NCBI GenBank assembly: GCA_021777225.1
Contig: JAJYDQ010000024.1
Span: forward strand, 4,506 to 44,930
DNA from: Deltaproteobacteria bacterium
GTDB taxonomy: Bacteria; Desulfobacterota; Desulfomonilia; Desulfomonilales; Desulfomonilaceae
Direction: 5' to 3'
Length of the DNA: 40,425 nucleotides
The position numbers were made by a program, and so were the translations under genes. Every line of letters starts with the position of its first letter. Position 1 is the first letter of the stretch. The notes beneath the pieces were generated by a model. That model saw only the letters and a list, made by a program, of their open reading frames with translations. It was not told the DNA's origin and did not search any database. This document shows, piece after piece, positions 21,314 to 24,253 of the stretch.

Positions 21314-22315
21314 ATGCTAAGAAGGTGTATCAATTACTCGTGTATTTTGACTGTTTTGTTAATGGTAGGGGTCGCCGGCGCATTTGCTGAATCCACTCCG
21401 GGTGTTTTGGATTCTTACGCTGCAGCCAGTCTGGAGGCTTCTCCAAGTTACAAAGCAATTTCAAAGGTGAAACCATCTGAACCGGCGGTAACAAAAGTCA
21501 GGCCGGGATTCATGTCTAGGCTGGAGGGATTGTCAAGGTTCAATCCAGCTAACTGGGCAAGCGAATGTATCCTGCCTGCTCCGGCTCAAGGGCAATTCAC
21601 GGCAGGCCCAAGAGTCTGGTTCGGGAAGATTCAGGGTGAGGCCAGAAGATCCATCGGGACTGCGGCCGTGCCCGGCACTTCAGTCAATTTTCATGACAAT
21701 TTGGGTTTCGGCCAGAATTCCACAGCCATGTGGGGTTTTGAGGCCAAATATCAGCTCAGGCCCCGATTCGGTCTAAGATATTCTTTCATGCCCATGAAAA
21801 TGGAATCAAAATATACAAGCCCGGGTTCCTTTACGTTCGCCAATCAGTTATTTGCTTCGGGCGCACTTGTGGAGTCCAAATTGGAACGTTTCGAACACAG
21901 GGCCGGCGTAACCTTCAATCTAACCAGTAATGTGAGTTCACGAACAAGCATATTTGCCGAGTGGATGTACATTCAGAACAAACTTCAAATTGGCAGTGGA
22001 GTCGGAGCCATCTCGCCAGTAATATGGGACGACACTCGTAGCCTCGCTGTTGTAGGCGCAGAATTCGATAAGTGTCTGAAGAACTTTCGTGGCAACAGTC
22101 TCAACCTCAGTTGCAAGGCTGACGTTATGTTCCTTAACAATTGTTTCGGGTTTGATGCGGAAACAGCTCTGAGTTACATGATTCCGATCAAAACCGGTCG
22201 GTTCGGTTTTGTGAAAGGTGGATATAGGTATTCTTACTTTCAGAAAGACAACAACAAAGACCTCTTCGACATCTCTATAGGTGGTCCTTTTGTCCAGGTA
22301 GGCTTCCTATTCTGA
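21314..22315 (+). CDS. predicted outer-membrane beta-barrel protein
   Basis: This 333-residue exported protein has a signal peptide (about 1-26, CILTVLLMVGVAGAFAES). The mature part shows alternating hydrophobic/polar strands from about residue 95 onward (FTAGPRVWFGKIQGEARR, AMWGFEAKYQLRPRFGLRYSF, FEHRAGVTFNLTSNVSSRTS, FGFVKGGYRYSYF) and ends in Phe (VQVGFLF), the usual BAM recognition feature. I cannot name the family; an 8-12-strand structural barrel fits better than a large porin. It has its own promoter and a strong intrinsic terminator, so it is monocistronic. A GAGGGAGGG site sits a few bases before the ATG. Confidence 0.75.
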   Translation: MLRRCINYSCILTVLLMVGVAGAFAESTPGVLDSYAAASLEASPSYKAISKVKPSEPAVTKVRPGFMSRLEGLSRFNPANWASECILPAPAQGQFTAGPRVWFGKIQGEARRSIGTAAVPGTSVNFHDNLGFGQNSTAMWGFEAKYQLRPRFGLRYSFMPMKMESKYTSPGSFTFANQLFASGALVESKLERFEHRAGVTFNLTSNVSSRTSIFAEWMYIQNKLQIGSGVGAISPVIWDDTRSLAVVGAEFDKCLKNFRGNSLNLSCKADVMFLNNCFGFDAETALSYMIPIKTGRFGFVKGGYRYSYFQKDNNKDLFDISIGGPFVQVGFLF

Positions 22316-22386
22316 CACGCTGGTCCAGCCGGTTACGAGTCCCTAATTCCCCCGATATAACCCGACCGAAATTTTAATACCCTCCG

Positions 22387-22415
22387 AAGTCCGACCCAAA
22401 GTCGGACTTTTTTTT
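22387..22415 (+). terminator. intrinsic terminator of the OMP gene
   Basis: A perfect 9-base stem, AAGTCCGAC (22387-22395) and GTCGGACTT (22401-22409), a 5-base loop and a run of eight T (22408-22415), 72 bases after the OMP stop. Confidence 0.88.
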
Positions 22416-22450: not shown

Positions 22451-24040
22451 TCAGGAGATCCAAATTGTTTCCAGATATGAAGTCGTCATATCCACGACCA
22501 TTCGAGGTTGATTGACTTCAAGGTCCCATGAAACAAATATCCCCGAAGGATCCACCAGGCTAAGATCATTTCCCTCAATGCAAGATTTCATTTTTTCATT
22601 AACTTTAGCTACAGTCCTGGTGACAATTCGTTCCAGTCCGAGATGGTCATTCAGTTCTTTTAGGGCCGGAGATGTATTGAGTTGCTCTACTGCTTCTTCC
22701 CAATGGATGCCTGGCACTTTTTTTCTCAGGATGTATCCGTTACCCCTGTCTCGAATTAAAAGCAGTGGTGGATTGAAATGAACCTTCGTATTCTTCACAA
22801 AGAAATGGGGCGATTTTTGTGACAGACCATTCAAAAAATCCCTCCTATTTTCCATTTTAGGCAACGCCCTGATAGGAGTACGTTCAAAGATTAAACTGGT
22901 CTCGTCAATTTGAATTTCTTTCAATCTGGTTGGATCAAACCCCAGATCCATAAGGTCTCCGAGGGTAAGAGAGTCCTGAGTGGTTTTACCATTTTTGCTC
23001 AACCAGGACATAAAACTAGGCCTTCTATAATTTGGTAAAGCTTCAATAAACCTTGCTGGATCTGATTTAAGCAATTCCGGCAGGTGTAGCCAGAGTTCCC
23101 TGTCGCCTGATAAAAAACAAGTCCTGTTATTAAGCTCCGCTGGCCCGTATGATTTTGCGGGCAGGTCCCGGATTGAGGCAGATAAAGGAATTTGGTCCAT
23201 GGATTCCCCACCGGTATAACCCAACAACTGCGATATCCTTCGTTTAAAACCAAGCAGTTTCGTAACGTAGCGAGTGAACATGAACCTCTTTAATGAGTCA
23301 TTTTCGTGAGATTCCTTCTGATCGCTGAAATAGGTCAGCAGGGCGCGATGGAGATCCTTGAACTCTTCTATGGTCCTTTGAACCATAATCTCATTGTCTC
23401 GCATGTCTATAGCGGGGCGTCTTCTTCTTATGTGATGAACCAGCCTAATGATTGAATCTGCTAAATCCTTTTCCGCATGTACTGGAGGAATGTAGATCAT
23501 GTAGGCGTCATCCTCATGCTTTCCCTGTCTACAAGCAATATCTCGAAATGGTTGCCAATCCAGCTTTCTGTAAATCTCAAAGGTGGGATCATCGGACGGT
23601 ATTATGTTGTCCAAAACTCCTATTGCAGACTTTTCGATCAAGAAATCCCGAAATTCTCTCAAGACCAAATTCCCCAAGCCCTTGTTCCGAAAGGGGGCCG
23701 CTACTTCCACATATACAAGATAAAAACAAGGGATAGGCTTGTTGAGATAAAGCATGTTCAGTCGGCCGAGGTTTTCCCCAATTTCGGAATTGATCTCAAA
23801 TGTCTTGAAACCCCTTGTGGATTTCCCTACGTTAAGCTTGTCAATCTTGGCGCCTGATACTGTGGAATCAACAAGGTCCCATAGTTCTTCATAAAGATCA
23901 GACGCTACAGGTGAATCATTGCTGCCATGCATGATACCGTCATGTATCAAACCAATTAAAGAGAGTCGATCAGTGGTGTTTAATCTCATAGCGCATGAAG
24001 AAGAGTTTGAAGGCCCTTTCACTGACAAATTTTCAAGCAT
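22451..24040 (-). CDS. GNAT acetyltransferase-domain protein with a large unknown C-terminal region
   Basis: This 529-residue cytoplasmic protein has a GNAT fold at about residues 75-190, with the acetyl-CoA pyrophosphate loop Arg118-Asn-Lys-Gly-Leu-Gly123 after the strand YLVYVEVAAPF and a following LREFRDFLIEKSAIGVLDNI. The remaining about 340 residues are not recognised. They contain a helical part with RLVHHIRRRRPAIDMRDNE and EEFKDLHRALLTYFSD, and later strands such as KTTQDSLTLGDLMDLGFDP and GNGYILRKKVPGIHWEEAVEQL. There is no signal or membrane segment. Length is about three times that of a single GNAT. The ATG at 24040 has AAGGG about 11 bases upstream. The gene sits right behind an intrinsic terminator and a leader-peptide frame, so it is probably controlled by attenuation. 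Confidence 0.75.
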   Translation of the reverse strand: MLENLSVKGPSNSSSCAMRLNTTDRLSLIGLIHDGIMHGSNDSPVASDLYEELWDLVDSTVSGAKIDKLNVGKSTRGFKTFEINSEIGENLGRLNMLYLNKPIPCFYLVYVEVAAPFRNKGLGNLVLREFRDFLIEKSAIGVLDNIIPSDDPTFEIYRKLDWQPFRDIACRQGKHEDDAYMIYIPPVHAEKDLADSIIRLVHHIRRRRPAIDMRDNEIMVQRTIEEFKDLHRALLTYFSDQKESHENDSLKRFMFTRYVTKLLGFKRRISQLLGYTGGESMDQIPLSASIRDLPAKSYGPAELNNRTCFLSGDRELWLHLPELLKSDPARFIEALPNYRRPSFMSWLSKNGKTTQDSLTLGDLMDLGFDPTRLKEIQIDETSLIFERTPIRALPKMENRRDFLNGLSQKSPHFFVKNTKVHFNPPLLLIRDRGNGYILRKKVPGIHWEEAVEQLNTSPALKELNDHLGLERIVTRTVAKVNEKMKSCIEGNDLSLVDPSGIFVSWDLEVNQPRMVVDMTTSYLETIWIS

Positions 24041-24085: not shown

Positions 24086-24115
24086 AAAAAAAAAGCGGAG
24101 TCTTTGCTCCGCTTT
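24086..24115 (-). terminator. attenuator-like intrinsic terminator upstream of the GNAT gene
   Basis: On the minus strand, AAAGCGGAG (24107-24115) pairs perfectly with CTCCGCTTT (24092-24100) around a 6-base loop, followed by nine T in all (24086-24094). It lies 28 bases after the leader peptide stop and 46 bases before the GNAT start. There is no upstream minus-strand gene to end, so it makes sense as an attenuator. Confidence 0.8.
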
Positions 24116-24142
24116 GGTTCTCTGATGGATGTAACTCTATCC

Positions 24143-24205
24143 TCAGCGAAGACGCGACCCGCTCCTTCCTCTAAAATAAAAATATACTGCGGAAAAATTA
24201 CGCAT
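24143..24205 (-). CDS. putative 20-residue leader peptide rich in Phe/Tyr and Arg
   Basis: An ATG at 24205, with AGGAGG 5 bases upstream (24211-24216), opens a frame of 20 codons ending in TGA. The peptide is MRNFSAVYFYF followed by RGRSGSRLR. Codons 8-11 are Tyr-Phe-Tyr-Phe, codon 4 is Phe, and five Arg codons are present. Runs of one amino-acid class are typical of ribosome-mediated attenuation leaders such as those of phe and trp operons. Downstream RNA can form the classic alternatives: AGCGG (codons 15-16) with the CGCU at the peptide end; the GUCUUCGCU around codons 18-20 with the 5' arm of the terminator (AGCG...AAGAC, 5-base bulge); or the terminator itself. A ribosome at the stop codon would cover the middle segment and allow termination. 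Confidence 0.6.
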   Translation of the reverse strand: MRNFSAVYFYFRGRSGSRLR

Positions 24206-24224
24206 CGTATCCTCCTGTTAATAT

Positions 24225-24253
24225 TTTCTAATGTTTAGATGGAACTTTGTCAA
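24225..24253 (-). promoter_or_regulatory. promoter of the leader-GNAT transcript
   Basis: On the minus strand, a perfect TTGACA (24248-24253), a 17-base spacer and TAGAAA (24225-24230), about 20 bases before the leader ATG. This places the start of transcription just ahead of the leader's ribosome site, as expected for an attenuation leader. Confidence 0.6.

Follow-up and report, generated by a model that had tools for sequence, protein, structure and literature searches.

Ribosome-mediated transcription attenuators of the phe/trp type are represented by the pheA, pheST and trp leaders of E. coli. The locus described here raises the question of why a leader of this kind, rich in phenylalanine and tyrosine codons, would stand before a gene whose product carries a GNAT domain. 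We consider this question in the window, meaning the whole analyzed stretch of 40,425 nucleotides, where the leader and its gene comprise the following features:

24225..24253, minus strand: Sigma-70-like promoter, with TTGACA at 24253-24248, a 17-nt spacer and a -10-like TAGAAA at 24230-24225, read from the sequence.
24211..24216, minus strand: Shine-Dalgarno sequence AGGAGG of the leader peptide, from sequence reading and the minimum-free-energy fold.
24143..24205, minus strand: leader peptide open reading frame of 20 codons, MRNFSAVYFYFRGRSGSRLR, followed by a stop; an equivalent frame occurs in 24/24 distinct leaders of this type.
24173..24184, minus strand: regulatory codons Tyr8-Phe9-Tyr10-Phe11 (TAT TTT TAT TTT), matched by runs of 4-7 Tyr/Phe codons in all homologous leaders.
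24188..24217, minus strand: segment 1, from the Shine-Dalgarno sequence to about codon 6, the anti-antiterminator partner of segment 2 (swap test and fold).
24145..24153, minus strand: segment 2, GUCUUCGCU, the antiterminator 5' strand (swap test).
24100..24113, minus strand: segment 3, AGCGGAGCAAAGAC, comprising the 5' arm and loop of the terminator, with which segment 2 can pair instead.
24086..24115, minus strand: intrinsic terminator, a 9-bp stem AAAGCGGAG/CUCCGCUUU at 24115-24092 with a U tract at 24094-24086.
22451..24040, minus strand: regulated gene, encoding the 529-aa protein P0001, with a GNAT domain at about residues 72-210 and a C-terminal domain of unplaced fold at about 280-529.

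The initial annotation had described a promoter, an AGGAGG, a 20-codon peptide and a 9-bp hairpin with nine U, and all of these parts are present on the minus strand where it had put them. The short frame is translatable, with a ribosome-binding site directly after the promoter, and an intrinsic terminator lies between it and the gene, as expected of an attenuator. A generic promoter consensus scan did not list the TTGACA/TAGAAA promoter because TAGAAA lacks the final T; TTGACA with an AT-rich -10 stands in front of nearly every relative's leader. The encoded peptide contains Phe4, the run Tyr8-Phe9-Tyr10-Phe11 and five Arg, and segment 2 overlaps its last codons together with the first base of the stop codon. 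The terminator, whose U tract is made up of nine T with three of them within the stem, is the stronger of two minus-strand sites in the 4 kb scanned, and a gap of 46 nt separates it from the gene start at 24040. The 137-nt leader RNA is predicted to fold at -46.7 kcal/mol, compared with -29.4 +/- 3.7 kcal/mol for shuffled sequences (z -4.67; 0/200 shuffles as good), and in the minimum-free-energy fold of the untranslated RNA, segment 1, to which the AGGAGG belongs, is paired with segment 2. Searching Rfam with the leader at gathering and permissive thresholds returned nothing, no family reaching its gathering score.

Sixteen genomes of the window's family hold an orthologue of the 529-aa protein, as do further members of the Desulfobacterota. 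Reading upstream of each orthologue's start codon, we found the leader, with its Tyr/Phe run and terminator, in all of the gene-holding family genomes (16/16) and in eight additional genomes that share this type of leader. The 24 distinct leaders obtained are built alike, with a TTGACA promoter, a Shine-Dalgarno sequence, a short frame, a Tyr/Phe run, a stop codon, a GCGGAG-loop-CUCCGC terminator and a U tract. The frame is about 20-25 codons long (longer in L027 if the most upstream start is used), and 24-34 nt separate its stop codon from the terminator (more in L029). Each of the 24 leaders contains 4-7 Tyr/Phe codons in a row (YFYF, YYYFYF, FYYYFYF, FFYFFYF and others); the flanks of this run vary between species in both sequence and length, while the run itself is never lost. 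Among the closest relatives, leader and gene travel together while their neighbours change, and the gene neighbourhood there is of little information. These comparisons argue that the attenuator is real, far beyond chance, and evolutionarily maintained, and the comparison with orthologous loci that the initial annotation had suggested thus strongly supports its claim of Phe/Tyr attenuation before a GNAT-domain gene.

The five Arg codons of the window's peptide had also suggested arginine as the sensed residue, and an attenuator responding to arginine, or to translation in general, would be compatible with that single peptide. Across relatives, however, the Arg count ranges from 1 to 5, whereas each leader has at least two Phe and at least two Tyr codons, and therefore Arg is not the conserved signal; partner genes, in addition, have Phe-only or Tyr-rich leaders. 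We consider sensing of arginine or of general translation the least probable of the alternatives, and hardly credible. Codon choice in the leaders is also distinctive, with Phe codons at TTT 71 to TTC 5, compared with 192 to 286 in the genes behind them (Fisher P 6e-20), and Tyr codons at TAT 57 to TAC 17, compared with 171 to 173 (P 2e-5). The TTT bias could partly reflect avoided RNA pairing instead of codon sensing.

The alternative pairings of the leader provide a further line of evidence. The terminator stem is nearly invariant, with the core GCGGAG/CUCCG in 24/24 sequences and double changes in 3/9 pairs. The antiterminator strand differs much by clade (GUCUUCGCU, GCUGCUGCGCU or GUGUGUG), and the terminator loop and arm vary in step with it (GCAAAGAC, GAGCAGC or GCACACA). 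We used an alignment-free swap test, in which segments are exchanged between species and duplex energies compared; the resulting P values are indicative rather than exact, because the permutations ran on related sequences. Region 2 pairs with its own terminator arm at -15.5 kcal/mol, compared with -13.2 kcal/mol for foreign arms (z -4.7, P 5e-5), and the leader start, before the Tyr/Phe run, pairs with its own region 2 at -18.5 kcal/mol, compared with -14.7 kcal/mol for foreign ones (z -5.1, P 5e-5). Both effects persist with one sequence per terminator-loop type (P 0.0007 and 0.002), and the negative control, the pairing of leader start with terminator, gave no coevolution signal (P 0.34).

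The mutually exclusive pairings of the initial annotation thus hold in one part, the coevolving contact of region 2 with the terminator arm (P 5e-5), and fail in another. It had assigned to the stalled ribosome the covering of AGCGG, which follows the Tyr/Phe run; as a partner of region 2 this AGCGG is not conserved and was rejected in the swap test (P 0.34), and the conserved anti-antiterminator is instead the Shine-Dalgarno and early-codon segment. Since the swap tests are positive for both other pairings and negative for AGCGG, the conserved architecture is segment 1, segment 2 and terminator 5' arm, and mutually exclusive antiterminator and anti-antiterminator pairings are maintained in evolution.

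This pattern also bears on whether the short frame might encode a small functional protein, with the hairpin as its ordinary terminator, forming a separate small gene that has no part in attenuation. The good Shine-Dalgarno sequence and conserved position of the frame would suit such a gene, but only the Tyr/Phe run is conserved in the peptide, its flanks change in step with the RNA pairing, and the leader always precedes the GNAT-family gene, its partners or aro genes despite changing neighbourhoods. A small-protein gene is therefore highly improbable, and we conclude that the element is very probably a ribosome-mediated transcription attenuator responding to charged tRNA-Phe and tRNA-Tyr, its target being a GNAT-domain member of a Phe/Tyr regulon in a set of Desulfobacterota.

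For the working of this attenuator, established examples suggest the stalling logic, the kinetics and the direction of the response. RNA polymerase would start near 24218, and a ribosome would translate the 20-codon leader. When tRNA-Phe or tRNA-Tyr is uncharged, the ribosome would stall at Tyr-Phe-Tyr-Phe and cover segment 1, such that segment 2 is freed to pair with the terminator 5' arm and loop; no terminator would then form, and the gene would be transcribed. After translation of the whole peptide, the ribosome would instead occupy segment 2, at the stop codon, and allow the terminator to form. The terminator would also form without translation, as segment 1 would then pair with segment 2. 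The net effect would be a gene that is on when the cell is short of phenylalanine or tyrosine.

The regulated protein itself lends only part of itself to classification. A structure model of P0001 (pLDDT 78.7) places a GNAT fold at residues 72-210 (VIA Z up to 9.9; Foldseek E 9e-4), with an R-N-K-G-L-G CoA loop and a conserved Tyr157; R118 and G123 are invariant in relatives, and G121 is nearly so. Pfam Acetyltransf_1 (PF00583) matches 18/22 relatives (E <= 0.1; best 3e-7); for P0001 itself, neither Pfam nor NCBIfam gave a family at E <= 0.001, and a PDB sequence-profile search for it returned no match. By modelled fold, CoA loop and conserved Tyr, P0001 resembles the GNAT superfamily acyltransferases, with putative acyl transfer activity, but it differs from them in its length of 529 aa, its extra N-terminal helices and its C-terminal domain of unplaced fold. 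Modelled alone, this last domain reaches a pLDDT of 87.5, and fold searches return weak kinase-lobe-like matches (Foldseek E 7e-4 to IRE1 at a TM-score of about 0.3; best VIA Z 7.0), which were kept out of the function assignment. In one draft genome (L014/L019, G006:C4:11720-13320) the GNAT gene is split into two overlapping frames, by assembly error or frameshift. The neighbours of the gene in the window are a divergent pmbA upstream and a convergent gene for an outer-membrane-type protein (21314-22315) downstream, and a strong terminator-like hairpin of 10 bp with a T tract follows the latter at 22386-22410 (plus strand).

More widely, the protein family is present in 30/395 phylum genomes from about nine families. 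Tyr/Phe-rich leaders are also found in several distant families, but their terminators are unrelated; one such leader is MIRRKGWFNFYYFYYYSFRDRSAFLCQIT, accompanied by CCATGGGC-type hairpins, and another, MVTFDRQSGLFFYFRRWTVPMG, precedes a fusion of the gene to a metallo-beta-lactamase (MBL) domain. One family includes three genomes where the gene is located directly behind pheA. At L110, L111 and L112, the GNAT-family gene directly follows pheA in aromatic operons that include archaeal-type ADTH synthase, dehydroquinate synthase II or both. The operon of one of the three genomes begins with the leader MDQLHHLNFSSGFYFYWFFYAGICPLPRADH and continues through ADTH synthase, dehydroquinate synthase II, dehydroquinase-like, shikimate dehydrogenase-like, aroA, aroK, aroC, pheA and GNAT-family genes, with trpE-trpG further on; in L110, the "-like" names, ADTH synthase and dehydroquinate synthase II were read from the sequence and from identified L111 homologues rather than from profile searches of those frames.

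In two further families (L115, L124) a Tyr/Phe leader is followed by the gene and an overlapping downstream CoA-transferase III gene, the latter identified by a profile match made for L124; in L121 the overlap is with an MBL-fold gene, and the leader is a Phe leader. Fusion to an MBL domain occurs in G087, G219 and G359. No Tyr/Phe leader was visible near the gene in G050, G122, G180 or the MBL-fused copy of G087, and for G133 and G310 only weak candidates were seen. In one family (L094, L096, L098) the gene is situated immediately after a tRNA-like sequence whose anticodon is CAT; two of the three loci show a terminator-like hairpin but no Tyr/Phe leader. The window's own genome and its close relatives contained no MBL partner at E <= 1e-40, in a set run without a positive control, and at E <= 1e-120 the CoA-transferase partner was absent from the window's own genome and present in two searched family genomes.

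Searching 60 related genomes and 395 phylum genomes with a covariance model of the leader yielded only a handful of matches, and those inspected precede GNAT-family, CoA-transferase III, MBL or shikimate/aro genes. In G304 and G376, both outside the set from which the model was built, the leader was recovered before the gene at E 3.5e-18 and 3e-12. Two other matches (L053, L054) were weak, partial and chance-like. In several genomes of the window's family, a CoA-transferase family III gene is preceded by an attenuator-like leader with Phe only, such as MIHISCPFFFFSFRRYKRAG (L055, L056, L058-L060, around 1501-1645); the last run in these leaders consists of Phe, and two of them have a single Tyr further on. 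Phe/Tyr(/Trp) leaders precede DAHP synthase at L063, L065 and L139, with prephenate dehydrogenase next in L065; the first of these, with the leader MINGFQISAVNRFFMFYYFVPPGG, lies in the window's own genome (G000:C69:23829-23989). A Phe/Tyr leader also precedes shikimate kinase-chorismate synthase genes at L137 (G323:C21:28885-29030), and at L138 (G292:C65:4286-4440) the Tyr-rich leader MTANQSRAYLYYYYYYTKRRGLLMD precedes an MBL-fold gene that stands by itself; relatives of this gene are fused to, or in operons with, the GNAT family. When 530 kb around these genes was scanned for short Tyr/Phe-rich frames with a Shine-Dalgarno sequence and a terminator, at a threshold of 5 Tyr/Phe in 7 that excludes the window's own YFYF, 21 of the 22 matches headed the gene or its operon, a result that speaks to position and not to frequency, because the loci were chosen for holding the gene.

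These operon links also serve to weigh the possibility that the attenuator is real but controls an acetyltransferase of general stress or protein modification, which captured an aro-type leader and has no aromatic role. GNAT enzymes are functionally diverse, and the window gene stands alone between pmbA and the outer-membrane protein gene, so that a captured leader would be conceivable here; it is nonetheless unlikely, as several families again show Tyr/Phe control, though with unrelated hairpins, three genomes have the gene directly behind pheA, in one of them inside a complete shikimate-pheA operon, and the partners linked to the gene are in some cases themselves preceded by Phe or Tyr leaders. 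From the pheA and shikimate operons, and from the Tyr/Phe leaders on divergent relatives and partners, it follows that the target is best placed in a Phe/Tyr regulon, probably as part of aromatic amino-acid metabolism. The suggestion of the initial annotation that the enzyme touches aromatic amino acids thereby gains independent support from these operons and from the co-regulated partners.

Our results place the element within the described class of ribosome-mediated attenuators (PMC1183508). It shares with phe/trp-type attenuators a promoter, a translated short leader rich in the regulated residue, exclusive antiterminator and terminator structures and a U tract. It differs from them in mixing Tyr and Phe codons in one run, in a three-segment layout where the Shine-Dalgarno sequence and early codons form the anti-antiterminator, and in a target that is a GNAT-domain gene and not a known biosynthetic or synthetase gene. 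In Desulfovibrio vulgaris, a putative attenuator was predicted earlier before the aroA'-aroB'-pheA-aroF-tyrA-trp supraoperon (PMC1173090, Table 7), likewise a case of attenuation of aromatic genes in Deltaproteobacteria, to which the aro leaders found here, including L063, are comparable; its target, unlike ours, is a biosynthetic operon, and no GNAT-family target is reported there (PMC1173090). In the literature searched, which lay outside subscription journals, we found no paper that connects a GNAT gene with Phe/Tyr attenuation. The regulatory mechanism is thus already known, and it is the regulated family and its partners that are apparently undescribed.

Attenuator codons report which metabolite a gene serves, and here they tie an unannotated protein family to phenylalanine and tyrosine supply. 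Most likely, the GNAT-domain protein helps to supply or salvage aromatic amino acids, and we hypothesize that it does so possibly through an aryl-CoA intermediate made by the CoA-transferase III partner. More tentatively, in some anaerobic Desulfobacterota the GNAT-domain protein, CoA-transferase III and the MBL-fold protein may constitute an undescribed accessory route for making or salvaging phenylalanine and tyrosine, with aryl acids, taken through aryl-CoA, as one example of a starting point; uncharged tRNA-Phe/Tyr would switch this route on. The same amino-acid control has been kept, or re-acquired, with unrelated RNA hairpins, and the operon and fusion partners, some with Phe or Tyr leaders of their own, provide a testable candidate for a missing or alternative step of aromatic amino-acid metabolism in anaerobic bacteria.
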